Below are positions 13,784 through 49,562 of a DNA stretch of 64,000 nucleotides, in pieces. Source of the stretch: Methylacidiphilum caldifontis. GTDB taxonomy: Bacteria; Verrucomicrobiota; Verrucomicrobiia; Methylacidiphilales; Methylacidiphilaceae. Below the pieces are notes generated by a model. That model had not been told where the DNA came from. It saw only the letters and a program-made list of their open reading frames with translations, and ran no database searches. Every line of letters starts with the position of its first letter. The first letter of the stretch is position 1. The stretch is from the NCBI RefSeq assembly GCF_017310505.1, contig NZ_CP065957.1, positions 2,170,001 through 2,234,000 on the forward strand, given 5' to 3'. The position numbers and the translations under genes are program-made.

Positions 13784-14481
13784 CGGCTACCAAGATTCTC
13801 TTTTTTCTTTTGGGCTGTTGTTTGAGTAAAGATCTCAGGTGTGGTTTGTGCCATTTCAAAACGAACCACGGTCAGCGTTAGAGAAAGCCGATCGTAGGGA
13901 TTCAGTCGTATTTGAGGAGGAATAGAAAAGGGATGAAGGCTGCTAAAAAGGTAGTGAATTTTATCTTTTTTAGAAACGAAAACCAGTATGAGCGCTTCAT
14001 CGGTTTTTTGGGTCTTTTCAGCAAAGAGAAGGTAGCTCCTGTCAAGGGAATCGGTTTTGCCGACAAAAGCATGAATAGCATCCCGATGAAACTTTTTTTC
14101 AATTATTTTTCTCTGGTCTGCAGTCAAAGAATCAAGGACAGATTTTAACCCATTGGTAGGATCAGGAAGCTCTTCGGTAAATTCAATAGGAGAGGAAGTG
14201 GTTTGCGAGTTTTTGTCCGTTTTTTTCCCATAAATATGGGTATTTGCATGGCTTTTGGGGTATTGATTTTCTTGAGGAGATTGAGAATTGTATTGAATGG
14301 GGTTAAGAGGAGACTGGGTTTGGGCATTGGATTGTGAAGGTAGAGGATAATCGGATTGAGTCTCAAGGTTGCCATCCTGTGCAGAGAGGTTATGCTCTGA
14401 GAATGCAGAAAGACAAAAAACTACCAAAAAGAGAAAAAAGAAAATAAATGGGTTTTTCTTTCGTCTCATTTTTGGATCCAT
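13780..14481 (-). CDS. Exported protein with Gln/Ser/Asn-rich linker, unknown
   Basis: A 233-residue protein with a signal-type helix (FIFFFLFLVVFCLSAF, about residues 12-28). A linker of about 80 residues follows, rich in Gln, Ser, Asn and Pro. The C-terminal domain (about 115-225) has LTADQRKIIEKKFHRDAI and alternating beta-type segments (EALILVFVSKKDKIHYLF, LSLTLTVVRFEMAQ). I do not recognise the family. It overlaps the upstream ynbE-ydbL fusion by 16 bases, so it is very probably co-translated with the YdbH/YnbE/YdbL system; E. coli has no fourth gene like this as far as I know. The start may be ATG 14481 or ATG 14469. Confidence 0.6.
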   Translation of the reverse strand: MDPKMRRKKNPFIFFFLFLVVFCLSAFSEHNLSAQDGNLETQSDYPLPSQSNAQTQSPLNPIQYNSQSPQENQYPKSHANTHIYGKKTDKNSQTTSSPIEFTEELPDPTNGLKSVLDSLTADQRKIIEKKFHRDAIHAFVGKTDSLDRSYLLFAEKTQKTDEALILVFVSKKDKIHYLFSSLHPFSIPPQIRLNPYDRLSLTLTVVRFEMAQTTPEIFTQTTAQKKKENLGSR

Positions 14482-14978
14482 TTTCCGTTATATTCCTGAA
14501 TATACTCTCCAGGATAACTCATTTCTTGCCATTTTTTTGCATATTCTTTTTCGATCTCCTCAAGGGGCTTCCCCTGGATTTTAGCCTGGGTCATGTAGAG
14601 TTTTGTCCTATCTTCATTTTCCTCTGAAACAACTTTTTTAGCCCAATTTCTATAATTTTCTTCTTTAGGAGGGTTGATGATTTCAAGATATCCATCTCGG
14701 TTTTCTCCAATCACTCGAGCATTTTTTAAACTTTGAACTTCCCCTGAGCGCAACCTCCGTCGGTCAGCTACCTGAGGATCGAGTGTGATACGATTGGGAG
14801 ATTCTTTTTCGGTAACCACCACTCCCATATTTACATTAATTTTGACAGGCTCGGGGGTTGTGAGTTTTACGGTTGGACTACAACTATAGAGGAAGAGAGA
14901 AAGAATAAGAATTCTTTCTTTTGAGAAGCAATTTAACAATAAAGTAATTCTAAGGTTGGAAAAAAATTGTTTTTTCAC
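14466..14978 (-). CDS. YnbE-YdbL fusion lipoprotein (DUF1318)
   Basis: A 170-residue protein. Residues 23-33 form a lipoprotein signal ending LYSC, with Cys33 as the lipidation site. Directly after it comes a YnbE-like segment (SPTVKLTTPEPVKINVNMGV), as in the small E. coli outer-membrane lipoprotein YnbE. Residues about 68-168 match YdbL/DUF1318: DRRRLRSGEVQSLKNARVIGE, GYLEI, EENEDRTKLYMTQA, and the end GEYIQEYNGKWIQK. In E. coli ydbH-ynbE-ydbL are three genes; YdbH and YnbE form a bridge between the membranes implicated in phospholipid transport and YdbL modulates it. Here ynbE and ydbL appear as one chain. It overlaps the ydbH-like gene by 29 bases. Domain assignment is from motif memory. 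Confidence 0.8.
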   Translation of the reverse strand: MKKQFFSNLRITLLLNCFSKERILILSLFLYSCSPTVKLTTPEPVKINVNMGVVVTEKESPNRITLDPQVADRRRLRSGEVQSLKNARVIGENRDGYLEIINPPKEENYRNWAKKVVSEENEDRTKLYMTQAKIQGKPLEEIEKEYAKKWQEMSYPGEYIQEYNGKWIQK

Positions 14979-42399: not shown

Positions 42400-43449
42400 T
42401 TGAAAAACAAAGCACATGATCAAGAACATAAAATATTGACTGTCAATTCAACTGATTTGAGATCTTTTGAAAATTTCCCCAAAGAACAAAAGAAGAAAAA
42501 TTTTTTAGGTCTTCTATTCAAGAGCTTTGTATCCATAAGCCTTCTTTTGTATCTAGGTTCAAAGCTTCAATGGAACAAGTTTTTTTCTTATTGCCATTCA
42601 ATAGATATCAGGTTGTTATGCCTTTCTTTCTTTTTCTGTGCTTTTCAGACGGTTCTATCTGCGCTGCGTTGGAAAATTCTGCTCTATGCTTTAAATACAA
42701 AAATCAAGAGTTGGACCTCTATTCAACTGGCGATGATTGGAAAATTTTTTAATGCGGTATTACCAGGGGGAACAAGTGGAGATCTTGTCAGGATATATTA
42801 TGCGCTCAAACTGTTCCCTGCTCAAAAGACAATGATATCCGTTTCGATTATCGTTGATCGGTTGATTGAAGGGATAGTTCTTCTTGTCCTGGGCTCTTTG
42901 TTCGGTTTGTTATTTTATCGTCAGCTTGAAGGCCAACCTCTTGTTCAAAAAGCTGTTCTTTTTCTTTTCATCCTTACAGTTTTAACGCTTCTCTTTTTAG
43001 CTTCCCTCAGGACCACTTTAAGGTGGGGCCTAAAACTCTCAGAAATTTTCTTTAGCAAAAGAAAAGGAATAATCGTGGGGGTTCTGGAAGAAATTATTCA
43101 GGTGTTGGATGCTTTAAAAAATGCATATGGAAAGGTTTTTTGGGCCTGTATGCTTTCTGTCGGAGTTCAGCTTTCAGCCATTATGATGTTTGTTTTTATT
43201 GCTGGCTCTTTACACATGCAGTTGCCGTTATGGCTTCTAGTGGTGGTGATGGTGGAAATAACACTAGTCGTATCACTTCCGATCAGTATTTCTGGACTTG
43301 GTGTCAGGGAGGGCTCGGTCATACTCCTGCTGAGTCCATATGGAATAAGTCCAGAACTTGCCCTTGGGTTTTCACTCCTGTCATTTACTATCGGTGTTTT
43401 TTGGAGCCTTGTAGGAGGGTTATTTTTTTTAACATGGAGGAAAAAATAA
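42400..43449 (+). CDS. Lysylphosphatidylglycerol synthase TM/AglD-like flippase family membrane protein
   Basis: A 349-residue integral membrane protein with about seven or eight helices. It has the UPF0104/LPG-synthase-TM pattern: RWKILLYALNTKI near 85, AMIGKFFNAVLPGGTSGDLVRIYYALK near 110 and SISGLGVREGSVILLLSPYGIS near 297. The lysyltransferase domain of MprF is missing, so it is the stand-alone transmembrane type, usually linked to lipid or glycolipid flipping. The start is TTG at 42400 with GAGGAG about 10 bases upstream. It precedes the SAM-hydrolase lipoprotein gene by 48 bases. Confidence 0.82.
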   Translation: MKNKAHDQEHKILTVNSTDLRSFENFPKEQKKKNFLGLLFKSFVSISLLLYLGSKLQWNKFFSYCHSIDIRLLCLSFFFCAFQTVLSALRWKILLYALNTKIKSWTSIQLAMIGKFFNAVLPGGTSGDLVRIYYALKLFPAQKTMISVSIIVDRLIEGIVLLVLGSLFGLLFYRQLEGQPLVQKAVLFLFILTVLTLLFLASLRTTLRWGLKLSEIFFSKRKGIIVGVLEEIIQVLDALKNAYGKVFWACMLSVGVQLSAIMMFVFIAGSLHMQLPLWLLVVVMVEITLVVSLPISISGLGVREGSVILLLSPYGISPELALGFSLLSFTIGVFWSLVGGLFFLTWRKK

Positions 43450-43497: not shown

Positions 43498-44403
43498 ATG
43501 ATTTTTAGGTTCCATTACCCAAAAAGCTATTGCTTTTTACTATCTCTGGTATTGATTATGCTTGGCTGTAGCAGAAATGAAAAAAGGGATTTGAAGAGCA
43601 ATTTGCGACCTGTCATTGGACTGATTACCGATTTTAGCACAAAAGACCCTTATGTGTCACAAATGAAAGGGGTCATCTATTCATTGGATCCCTATGCCCG
43701 GGTCATAGATCTTAATCATGAAATTGATCCCTTTAATCTTGCTGAAGCAGCCTTTATTGTTGACCAGGCGAGCAGAGAATTTCCAGCCGACTCTATTTTT
43801 ATTGCGGTTATTGATCCGGGTGTAGGGACGGATCGAAAAGCTATTCTTTTTGAATCTAAAGCACGCAAATTTTATATCGGTCCGGATAATGGAATTTTTA
43901 GTCTTGTTATGGATAGAGAAGGCATAATGGGAGCGTGGATTCTTGATAAGCCTGAAATATGGAGAAATAGGCAGCCTAGCCAGACTTTTCATGGAAGGGA
44001 TATTTTTAGTCCCGTAGCAGCCTTTTTGAGTAAAGGAGGAAAACCTCAAAACGTGGGTTCAAAAGTTTCCCAAGACAAGCTTCATTTCTTGAGTTTTTCT
44101 CCGGCTTCGATTATAGGAGAAAGTGTTTCCGCTCAGGTTCTCTATGTTGATCATTATGGCAATATTATTACCAATATTCCTTTAGGACTTGTATCCTGGA
44201 TAAAAGAGGGAAACCTCCTGCGTATTCAAATTGGCAAAATAACGCTTGCTGCTCCCTGTGTAAAAACCTATAGTGATTTGCCTTTAGGTAAGATTGGAGT
44301 ATTATATAATAGTAGCGGTTATCTTGAGATTGCGTCAAATCAGGGATCAGCCGCAAAAGTATTTAAAGCCCAATCGGGTGTTTCCCTATTAATTCATCCA
44401 TAG
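43498..44403 (+). CDS. DUF62-family SAM hydrolase, predicted lipoprotein
   Basis: A 301-residue protein of the S-adenosylmethionine hydroxide adenosyltransferase/halogenase fold. Family motifs: GLITDFSTKDPYVSQMKG near 40-57, VIDLNHEIDPFNLAEAAF near 72, FIAVIDPGVGTDRKAI near 103, YIGPDNGIFSLV near 128, TFHGRDIFSPVAAFL near 165 and VDHYGNIITNIP near 225. The relatives split SAM into adenosine and methionine. Unusually there is an N-terminal signal with the lipobox IMLGC (Cys24, Ser25). If processed, the enzyme would be outside the cytoplasm, where SAM is not expected. The downstream typA starts 3 bases after its stop. Confidence 0.85.
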   Translation: MIFRFHYPKSYCFLLSLVLIMLGCSRNEKRDLKSNLRPVIGLITDFSTKDPYVSQMKGVIYSLDPYARVIDLNHEIDPFNLAEAAFIVDQASREFPADSIFIAVIDPGVGTDRKAILFESKARKFYIGPDNGIFSLVMDREGIMGAWILDKPEIWRNRQPSQTFHGRDIFSPVAAFLSKGGKPQNVGSKVSQDKLHFLSFSPASIIGESVSAQVLYVDHYGNIITNIPLGLVSWIKEGNLLRIQIGKITLAAPCVKTYSDLPLGKIGVLYNSSGYLEIASNQGSAAKVFKAQSGVSLLIHP

Positions 44404-44405
44404 AC

Positions 44406-46274
44406 ATGGATCTTGGAAAGAATGAATCACATTTATTAGGTATGGAAAAGATTAGAAATATAGCCATCATAGCTCATGTCGACCATGGAAAGACAACTTT
44501 GGTTGACCAGCTTTTGAAACAGTCAGGTGCTTTCAGACAAAACCAACAGCTTGCTGAAAGAATAATGGATAGCATGGATCTTGAAAAAGAGAAAGGAATA
44601 ACCATAAAAGCGAAGAACGCCTCTTTTCAATATGCTGACTACAAGATCAATATCATTGATACGCCAGGTCATGCTGATTTTGGAAGCGAGGTAGAAAGAA
44701 GCCTTGGGATGGTCGATGGAGTGTTGTTGCTTGTGGATTCTGTAGAGGGTCCACAGGCTCAGACTAAATTCGTTTTAAAAAAAGCGTTAGCTCAAAATCT
44801 TCCGGCTTTGGTTCTTATCAACAAAATAGATAGACCAAATGCCCAGCCTATACAGGTGTTAGATCAGGTATTTGAGCTTTTTCTCGAATTAGAAGCTTCT
44901 GAAAAGCAACTGGATTTTCCTGTTTTATACGTTTCTGCCAAAGAAGGAGTTGCCCTTAAGGAATGGAAAAAGGGGATTTCTGAGCAGGATAGGGAAAATG
45001 GGTTCAGGCCCCTTTTTGAGGCGATCATTACCCATATTCCTTCTCCAACCATTTATCCCGACTCTTCGTTTAAACTTTTAGTCGCCAACTTGGATTACAG
45101 CGATTATCTTGGCCGAATAGCTATAGGAAAAGTATTTTCTGGAAGTATTCGGGTAGGTTCTCCACTTTTTTGCCATCATAAGTCTTCACAACTCTCTTGC
45201 GGCAGCGTTACGGCTATTTTGGGATTTAAAGGATTAGAGAGAGTAGCCCTTAACGAAGCTTCTGCTGGGGATATTGTGGGCATTGCGGGATTAGAAGAGG
45301 TGTATATCGGAGACACCCTCTCCGATTCAGAAAAAGTTATTCCTCTACCCCGAGTTGAAGTGGATCCTCCAACCGTTAGAATGAGGATTGTCGTAAACGA
45401 CTCTCCTTTGGCTGGAAAAGAGGGAAAATTTTTAACAGCAAGGCATATCTATGAAAGGCTTCAGAAAGAAGCCAGGACTAATGTTGGACTGAGAGTTCAA
45501 GAGACGGATATTCCGGGAACTTTCGAGGTCAATGGGAGAGGAACCATGCAGATCGCTGTTCTTGTCGAACAGATGCGTAGGGAGGGATTTGAGCTGATGG
45601 TGAGTAGACCTGAAGTAATCTATAAAGAAGATGCTTCGGGGATTATTTATGAACCCATTGAGTTGCTTTTAGTAGATATTCCTCAGGAGAATTTAGGTGG
45701 AGTGATGGAAATGCTTTCGAAAAGGGCAGGCAATATTCGGTTAATGAAGAATAGTCAAAGTAGGGTTTTTATAGAATGTTTAATTCCTACGAGAGGATTG
45801 ATCGGATTCAAAACAGAGTTTATCAATTTGACTCGAGGAGAAGGCTATTGCAGTCATCTTTTCCATGAATATGGCCCAAAACAGGGAGAGGTAGAGATTA
45901 GGAAAAGAGGAGTGCTCGTTTCGATGGAAAGAGGGCTGTCAACGACCTATGCTTTAGAAAATCTCCAGCAACGAGGAGTCCTTTTTATTGGCCCCGGGGT
46001 GGAGGTGTATGAGGGCATGGTTGTTGGCGAACATAAGCGACCCGGCGATCTTCTGGTAAATCCCTGCAAGGCAAAACATTTAACCAACATTCGTTCTCAA
46101 GGTGAAGGCAAAGCCATTGGACTTGAACCTCCAAGGATATTTAGGCTTGAAGAGGCACTCGAATTTATTGACGCTGACGAGTTTGTTGAACTGACACCTA
46201 CGAAAATGAGGATTAGAAAAAAAATACTGGATGCACATGAACGCAAAAAAGCCTCTCTGAAAGTAGGGTCCTGA
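44406..46274 (+). CDS. typA: Ribosome-associated GTPase TypA/BipA
   Basis: A 622-residue GTPase; homologs begin at the Met at 44442 (MEKIRNIAIIAHVDHGKTT), so the true protein is probably 610 residues. G-domain motifs: AHVDHGKTTL (G1), GITIKAKN near 62 (G2), IDTPGHADFG (G3), NKIDRPNA (G4) and VSAKEG (G5). The later domains show TVRMRIVVNDSPLAGKEG near 335, EVNGRGTMQIAVLVEQMRREG near 385, and the C-terminal GPGVEVYEGMVVGEH and NPCKAKHLTNIRS. BipA helps 50S assembly and stress growth. Its position tight behind the SAM-hydrolase lipoprotein gene suggests one transcript. Confidence 0.95.
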   Translation: MDLGKNESHLLGMEKIRNIAIIAHVDHGKTTLVDQLLKQSGAFRQNQQLAERIMDSMDLEKEKGITIKAKNASFQYADYKINIIDTPGHADFGSEVERSLGMVDGVLLLVDSVEGPQAQTKFVLKKALAQNLPALVLINKIDRPNAQPIQVLDQVFELFLELEASEKQLDFPVLYVSAKEGVALKEWKKGISEQDRENGFRPLFEAIITHIPSPTIYPDSSFKLLVANLDYSDYLGRIAIGKVFSGSIRVGSPLFCHHKSSQLSCGSVTAILGFKGLERVALNEASAGDIVGIAGLEEVYIGDTLSDSEKVIPLPRVEVDPPTVRMRIVVNDSPLAGKEGKFLTARHIYERLQKEARTNVGLRVQETDIPGTFEVNGRGTMQIAVLVEQMRREGFELMVSRPEVIYKEDASGIIYEPIELLLVDIPQENLGGVMEMLSKRAGNIRLMKNSQSRVFIECLIPTRGLIGFKTEFINLTRGEGYCSHLFHEYGPKQGEVEIRKRGVLVSMERGLSTTYALENLQQRGVLFIGPGVEVYEGMVVGEHKRPGDLLVNPCKAKHLTNIRSQGEGKAIGLEPPRIFRLEEALEFIDADEFVELTPTKMRIRKKILDAHERKKASLKVGS

Positions 46275-48176: not shown

Positions 48177-49562
48177 ATGTTATCTAACCCTCTAAAGAGA
48201 AGTTCAAGGCGTCGGGGAAAAAAGGTCAAATTTTTTTGGTTCTTTGTTGTTCTCTTTGTGACATATCCCTTATCTGTTGGCCATTCTACTTCATTTGCCG
48301 ATGGAAAGAGGGAAACGGATTATGTGAAGCTTTTTCATGAGGCAAAGATAGAAGAAGCAGCTCAAGTGGCTCGCTGGCAGCTCTTGCAAAATCCAGAAGA
48401 TGGGAGAGCATGGAAAACCCTTGGATGGATCGAATTAATGAAAAACCATCTTGAAGAAGCACAATATGCCCTTCAGAAAGGACTTAAAGCTAATCCCGAT
48501 GATACGGAAATGAAGAGGCTCTTAGCCATCTGTTTTTATAGAGAAAATAACCTAGAACAGTCTGCCGAGCTCTTAGATGAAATTAAAGAAAAATGGACAG
48601 CCAATCTTTTAAGGCATTTAGAACCTAAAGCCTTTGACATCCAGGGAGATTTTTCTTATGTCAAGCTCAATGAATCTAATCCTTTTGTCGTTATTCCTGT
48701 AACTATTTGTAATAAAACGGTACCTCTTTTTTTAGATACTCGGGGGTCATTTACCGCCTTAGATAGGGATCTTTATGAAAAAATGAAAAAGATTAGGCTT
48801 CTGGATGTGATTGCCCTGCAATTTTGGTTCAATTTTGCTGGGAAATGGTCTATCCGGTCGCGAATAGGAACGTTCGATATGAAAGTTGGAAATTTAAAGA
48901 TCGAAAATGTTCCTGTTTTATTGGCAAGATGGCAAGGAACATATCTTTTCCCTAGGCACGTTCCTCAGATTGTCCATGGCGTATTAGGAACCGATTGGAT
49001 GAGGCAGTTTAATATCACGATAGATTATCCCCAAAAAGTGCTTTTGCTGCGAAAAAAAGAAAGCCTTTCAGAAAATGCCAACGTGGACAAAGAGGGTGAG
49101 CAGACAACAAAAATTCCCTTTTATTTAACTCCAGGAGGACAAATCGTTATCGAGGGGAAAATCAACGATCAAGGGGGGAACTTTTTTTTGATTGACACCC
49201 TGAGTGTGGGCAGAGCATTTAGCTGTTCAGAATGGATAATCCATAAATATCATTTGGCTCGTTATGGAGGATGGATTATTGGTCAAAGACGGGGATCGAT
49301 GTATCCTCATGTTTATGCGGTTATTCCCAAAATCCAGATCGGGAATATCATAAGGGAAAATGTTCCCGCAAGTATAGGAAAGAACTATGATTTTCCTCCA
49401 TCGATTGATCATAAACAGGGATTTCCAATAGGGGTAATAGTGGGTAATGGGTTTTTCAAGTCTTTCGAGGTCACTTTCGATTTCCAGAAAATGGAGCTGG
49501 TATTGAAATCCAAAAAGACAGTAGAGGAAAAATCAGAAAATCCTTTGGCCTTAAAACAGTAA
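48177..49562 (+). CDS. TPR protein with aspartyl-protease-like domains
   Basis: A 461-residue exported protein: basic N-terminus and signal helix (about 17-40), two to three TPRs (about 48-145; ARWQLLQNPEDGRAWKTLGWI and EEAQYALQKGLKANPDD), then two retropepsin-like repeats. The first has IPVTICNKTVPLFLDTRGSFTALD near 180-200; the second has GKINDQGGNFFLIDTLSVG near 330. The usual active-site form is DTGAS or DTGGS; here the first is DTRGS and the second DTLSV, so catalysis is doubtful. VHGVLGTDWMRQFNITIDYPQK near 265 and VIVGNGFFKSFEVTFDF at the end are hallmarks of this fold. It follows the barrel gene, suggesting a joint envelope role. Confidence 0.75.
   Translation: MLSNPLKRSSRRRGKKVKFFWFFVVLFVTYPLSVGHSTSFADGKRETDYVKLFHEAKIEEAAQVARWQLLQNPEDGRAWKTLGWIELMKNHLEEAQYALQKGLKANPDDTEMKRLLAICFYRENNLEQSAELLDEIKEKWTANLLRHLEPKAFDIQGDFSYVKLNESNPFVVIPVTICNKTVPLFLDTRGSFTALDRDLYEKMKKIRLLDVIALQFWFNFAGKWSIRSRIGTFDMKVGNLKIENVPVLLARWQGTYLFPRHVPQIVHGVLGTDWMRQFNITIDYPQKVLLLRKKESLSENANVDKEGEQTTKIPFYLTPGGQIVIEGKINDQGGNFFLIDTLSVGRAFSCSEWIIHKYHLARYGGWIIGQRRGSMYPHVYAVIPKIQIGNIIRENVPASIGKNYDFPPSIDHKQGFPIGVIVGNGFFKSFEVTFDFQKMELVLKSKKTVEEKSENPLALKQ

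Follow-up and report, generated by a model that had tools for sequence, protein, structure and literature searches.

A predicted DUF62-family lipoprotein from Methylacidiphilum caldifontis and its signal-bearing relatives

The DUF62 family is known for enzymes that degrade SAM, the methyl donor of the cell. Several of its members have been characterized structurally or enzymatically, among them the SAM hydroxide adenosyltransferases, or (R)-SAM hydrolases, PH0463 (PDB entries 1wu8 and 2wr8) and MJ1651, and a protein from T. maritima (PDB entries 2zbu and 2zbv). In PH0463 the hydrolase triad Asp-Arg-His is formed by Asp68, Arg75 and His127, and the presence of this triad separates the hydrolases from the SAM halogenases, which do not contain it (PMC4859513, PMC10491745). 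StDUF62 from Salinispora tropica, an (R,S)-SAM hydrolase, is treated as an intracellular enzyme, and it is disputed whether any DUF62 enzyme, a cytoplasmic one included, naturally serves to hydrolyse (R,S)-SAM (PMC12120602). The physiological role of the family is debated because the destruction of SAM in the cytoplasm looks wasteful.

The gene described here occupies positions 43498–44403 on the forward strand of the window, by which we mean the whole 64 000-nucleotide stretch of M. caldifontis DNA that was analysed. It opens with an ATG, its frame is intact and it encodes a product of 301 amino acids followed by a stop codon. The host genome (2.25 Mb, a single contig) contains no other DUF62 gene, so that the predicted exported protein would be the only DUF62 protein of the organism. 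Comparison of the core codons with those of a locus from the same genus (L015) gave 82 synonymous and 36 non-synonymous differences, from which it is clear that the core is under purifying selection. An intact and constrained core rules out a pseudogene.

Domains, catalytic triad and fold

To the initial annotation the DUF62 core looked complete, and domain, residue and fold comparisons all bear this out. Both Pfam domains score well above their cut-offs: SAM_HAT_N (PF01887) is matched over its full length at 172.4 bits (cut-off 26.3) and SAM_HAT_C (PF20257) over model positions 2–80 of 84 at 75.8 bits (cut-off 25.5), giving a two-domain core that spans residues 40–294. The SAM_HAT_N catalytic domain (residues 40–187; 43615–44058, forward strand) carries Asp106, Arg113 and His165, which the phmmer alignment places opposite Asp68, Arg75 and His127 of PH0463. 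It also contains the PDNG motif at residues 129–132, while the SAM_HAT_C domain (residues 213–294; 44134–44379, forward strand) contains the VDHYGN motif at residues 217–222; both of these SAM-pocket motifs (the latter of the form xDxxxGN) are intact. The triad positions are retained in 153 to 158 of 162 aligned relatives, in signal-bearing and signal-free groups alike. This conclusion is unaffected by the fact that group A of our residue-conservation table includes four loci (L056, L124, L125 and L154) which belong to the Sec-signal group. We do note two relatives in which the triad has been lost, L037 (Vicingaceae) and L165 (G016), the second of which retains its lipoprotein signal; judging from the sequence of L165, some exported members may serve a noncatalytic role.

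The T. maritima protein is the closest solved structure both by sequence (35% identity over residues 40–296; phmmer E value of 1e-52 for 2zbu, compared with 1e-40 for PH0463) and by fold. A structure model built from eight sequences has a pLDDT of 78, with values below 50 only at residues 1–9 and 23–34, and its best match in the PDB is 2zbu (Foldseek E value of 3e-30; TM score by target of 0.86). Each of the best 40 PDB matches is either a DUF62 protein or a SAM halogenase, and the model has no significant match beyond these two groups. In 2zbu/2zbv the aligned core begins at chain residue 2, leaving no room for the signal and tether that are present in the M. caldifontis protein. PH0463 and MJ1651 share both domains and the triad with it, but their cores start among the first residues of the chain and they have no lipobox. 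StDUF62 has PF01887 and the proposed activity in common with our protein, which is predicted to be exported. The fluorinase FlA and the chlorinase SalL share its fold and SAM-binding core, but lack both the water-activating triad and an export signal. We also note that the protein scores far below the cut-offs of the NCBIfam (R)-SAM hydrolase equivalog models (NF053629, 170.8 of 470 bits; NF058624, 165.4 of 350 bits), and functional equivalence with PH0463 and MJ1651 is putative.

Signal peptide and lipobox

The core is preceded by a signal peptide, MIFRFHYPKSYCFLLSLVLIMLG, and a lipobox cysteine, Cys24 (together 43498–43569, forward strand; Cys24 codon 43567–43569), after which the chain continues as SRNEKRDLKSNLRPV into the core. 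The segment MIFRFHYPKSYCFLLSLVLIMLG-C24-SRNEK has a positively charged n-region, a hydrophobic stretch free of charged residues and the lipobox Ile-Met-Leu-Gly-Cys24, with the LspA cut predicted between Gly23 and Cys24. The Met and Leu at positions -3 and -2 are acceptable, although they are not the commonest residues there. In our own implementation of a PROSITE-type lipoprotein rule, which accepts three of the 55 window ORFs of at least 150 amino acids, the protein is recognized as a lipoprotein. One further candidate in the window is a short ORF on the reverse strand (14466–14978) with a lipobox-like LYSC after a hydrophobic stretch, which is possibly another lipoprotein. Both Lgt and LspA are encoded in the genome. 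The 15-residue linker (residues 25–39; 43570–43614, forward strand) is modelled mostly at low confidence, as would be expected of a flexible segment, and residues 9–21 are helical in the model, also at low confidence. The +2 residue is Ser25 rather than aspartate; by the sorting rule established in E. coli, which belongs to another phylum, a serine at this position directs a lipoprotein to the outer membrane.

A comparison inside the genus shows more rapid divergence in the signal region (18 of 38 residues differ from L015) than in the core (36 of 263), yet the signal stays hydrophobic and keeps its Gly-Cys pair. The hydrophobic segment and Gly-Cys also persist in two sister species groups, the remainder of the signal having diverged. 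The strict lipobox rule passes over L015 (IVHGC), as it does L004 (LVQC). A lipobox arising by chance was considered and ruled out by the signals found in relatives and by the way in which the signal tracks the tree of the catalytic core. The lipoprotein signal with the lipobox IMLGC reported in the initial annotation thus stands, on the strength of the PROSITE-type rule and of the signals in relatives of the same order.

Distribution and ancestry of predicted export

A DUF62 gene was found in 33 of 40 relatives, members of the family and of the order included, and a search of genome contigs with the single protein as query gave seven loci. The signals in these relatives were assigned by our own rule and not by SignalP. 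Nearly all same-order relatives with a readable N-terminus bear a signal, in most cases with a lipobox (LAGC, LTGC, YSGC, LGGC, FTAC and others); three loci of one family (L003, L008 and L105) have a Sec signal without the cysteine. Elsewhere in the class, families f12, f21 and f83 have mostly Sec signals, and in its other families, as in other classes of the phylum, the N-terminus mostly begins directly at the core. Among Bacteroidota the common copy lacks a signal, and a Sec signal is seen in a second type that often occurs where a genome carries two copies. Exported copies of this second type were seen at L123–L126, L128–L131 and L134, several of the genomes having two DUF62 matches, which suggests that a cytoplasmic and an exported copy coexist there.

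The exported type extends to Aeromonas and to E. coli; of 5426 complete E. coli genomes, 2381 (about 44%) have a chromosomal DUF62 gene with a Sec signal next to uvrD. The E. coli protein (WP_000751627.1) and that of Aeromonas fall on the same branch as the M. caldifontis protein, share about 34% identity with it and retain the triad; they differ in having a tryptophan in place of Ile224 and a cleavable-type Sec signal without a lipobox cysteine (MKKTLATLFLLTCLGSSSAYADNA). The E. coli gene (L064/L181) also adjoins yigE, which belongs to the phosphodiester glycosidase family. DUF62 genes were also noted in records deposited as Helicobacter prophages (H11 and H18).

A tree was calculated from 115 catalytic cores with the signal regions left out. 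The initial annotation had called for a survey of signal-bearing DUF62 proteins, and in this tree 54 of the 56 members of a single branch (SH-aLRT 97) bear a signal, compared with none of the 59 cores outside it. The two exceptions are L158, the hydrophobic N-terminus of which is missed by our rule for want of a lysine or arginine, and L067 (Listeria), which has none. A more careful tree of 73 rows reproduces the division with 100/97 support. The branch consists of a lipoprotein half (95/77) and a Sec-signal half made up of other Verrucomicrobiota, the second copies of Bacteroidota, Aeromonas and E. coli, and it has residues of its own, for example Phe101 and Asn271. The Sec-signal half sits on a long branch. 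Under the simpler LG+F+G4 model the best topology joins the two halves, but an AU test under that model did not reject a placement of the Sec branch basal to the cytoplasmic rows (AU 0.107). A single origin of export is favoured by these sequences, with two origins possible; under either, export is inherited rather than the product of a chance reading frame. The signal follows the core tree and cannot be put down to a quirk of this single gene.

Upstream of the M. caldifontis gene lies one for a flippase-like membrane protein of the LPG_synthase_TM type (42400–43449, forward strand) and downstream, two bases past the DUF62 stop codon, typA/bipA (44406–46274, forward strand). Most of the family's loci have the arrangement flippase-like gene, DUF62, typA, and the pair DUF62–typA is preserved in parts of the order. 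We considered reading a function from these neighbours, but neither of them, though conserved, points to a substrate.

Proposed function and alternative readings

In our view, the best reading of the data, and one that we consider probable, is that the protein is a membrane-anchored extracytoplasmic hydrolase of SAM or (R)-SAM. The elements on which it is based, namely the ORF, the domains, the fold, the triad, the lipobox, the presence of Lgt and LspA and the inheritance of export with the core, were each tested; from these we infer the location and substrate, while for the activity, the stereochemistry, the oligomeric state and the benefit we extrapolate from characterized relatives. The protein would be exported by Sec as a lipoprotein, lipidated at Cys24 by Lgt and relieved of residues 1–23 by LspA, whereupon the 15-residue tether would hold the DUF62 domain in the periplasm on a membrane. 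The domain is probably a homotrimer, as in its relatives, and Asp106, Arg113 and His165 would activate water for the cleavage of SAM, perhaps preferentially its (R,S) epimer, with release of adenosine and methionine. The benefit could be the salvage or detoxification of SAM leaked by cells or encountered in their surroundings. SAM survives better in acid than at neutral pH, which would fit an acidophile, but as many of the exported proteins belong to organisms of other habitats we have not used this as evidence.

On a broader scale we propose, tentatively and with somewhat more doubt than belief, that one ancient branch of the family acts beyond the cytoplasm, its members being lipoproteins in the order to which Methylacidiphilum belongs and periplasmic proteins exported by Sec in E. 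coli, Aeromonas, Bacteroidota and the other Verrucomicrobiota, and that it represents an undescribed extracytoplasmic activity for salvage or detoxification of SAM or (R)-SAM. The DUF62 family itself is well known; the surprise lies in the compartment and in the extent of the branch. The initial annotation knew of no described exported member, and in agreement with this we found no description of one in the open-access papers that we searched. A branch that is exported throughout cannot serve to clear cytoplasmic SAM; its existence would mean that SAM or a close analogue is encountered beyond the cytoplasm, and it bears in this way on the disputed role of SAM hydrolysis by DUF62 enzymes. The E. 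coli member makes an extracytoplasmic role testable in laboratory strains of that species.

The alternative that survives best is that the protein is exported but has another natural substrate, a different 5'-adenosyl (sulfonium) or nucleoside compound, or that the domain merely binds adenosine or methionine for uptake. We know of no periplasmic source or free periplasmic pool of SAM, and this, together with the residues particular to the exported branch and a physiological DUF62 substrate that is unsettled (PMC12120602), lends the alternative some weight. Against it, the triad, PDNG and xDxxxGN are all intact, and a pure binder need not retain the triad; we regard it as unlikely, though it deserves to be taken seriously. 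A different substrate, one of the possibilities raised in the initial annotation, is not required by export, given that this protein and nearly all of its exported relatives have the Asp-Arg-His triad intact. The simplest substrate for the extracytoplasmic hydrolase that we propose would be SAM arriving outside the cytoplasm, whether leaked or environmental, and leaked SAM was also among the possibilities that the initial annotation listed.

The initial annotation also allowed for translation starting after the lipobox, in which case the upstream hydrophobic codons would be untranslated and the product an ordinary cytoplasmic SAM hydrolase. Such a start could be made at an ATG at codon 21, inside the lipobox, or at TTG codons 32 or 36, all of which precede the core, and the ATG at 43498, which has no other start codon beside it ahead of the hydrophobic stretch, lacks a clear Shine–Dalgarno sequence. 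However, nearly all same-order relatives keep the hydrophobic segment and the cysteine whatever the surrounding sequence, the segment retaining its character in many genera, substitutions in the segment in the sister genus preserve its hydrophobic residues and one lysine, and the signal co-segregates with the core phylogeny. Furthermore, in seven of the 37 relatives with a lipobox the stretch from the cysteine to the first core strand offers no start codon at all; five of these seven are close homologues with intact cores. Conservation thus argues against a late start, which we consider improbable but to which we still assign a little weight.

Several of the sister-genus loci (L007, L009, L013, L014, L017 and L029) have no ATG, GTG or TTG directly before the hydrophobic segment. 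An ATC or ATA codon is conserved in its place, mostly after a GGAG-like or GGGGA-like motif, and if used as a start this codon would open a neat lipoprotein signal (I-AKLFWALGLAMVLAGC). A conserved non-canonical start codon is possible in these sequences.

An exported SAM-dependent halogenase of the chlorinase or fluorinase type, suggested by the shared fold superfamily and by Foldseek matches to SalL, ClA1 and FlA (E values of about 1e-27 to 1e-23), is rejected as highly improbable on the triad, which is present here and absent from halogenases (PMC10491745, PMC4859513), and is further opposed by the hydrolase-type nature of the nearest solved relatives by sequence and by an NCBIfam fluorinase score of 88.6 bits, far under the 400-bit cut-off.

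Two minor observations were made in the course of the analysis. The AMO/PmoA family has three matches in the M. caldifontis genome, and a gene at 48177–49562 on the forward strand of the window encodes a protein in which a signal-like N-terminus is combined with TPR repeats and with an aspartyl-protease-2 domain.
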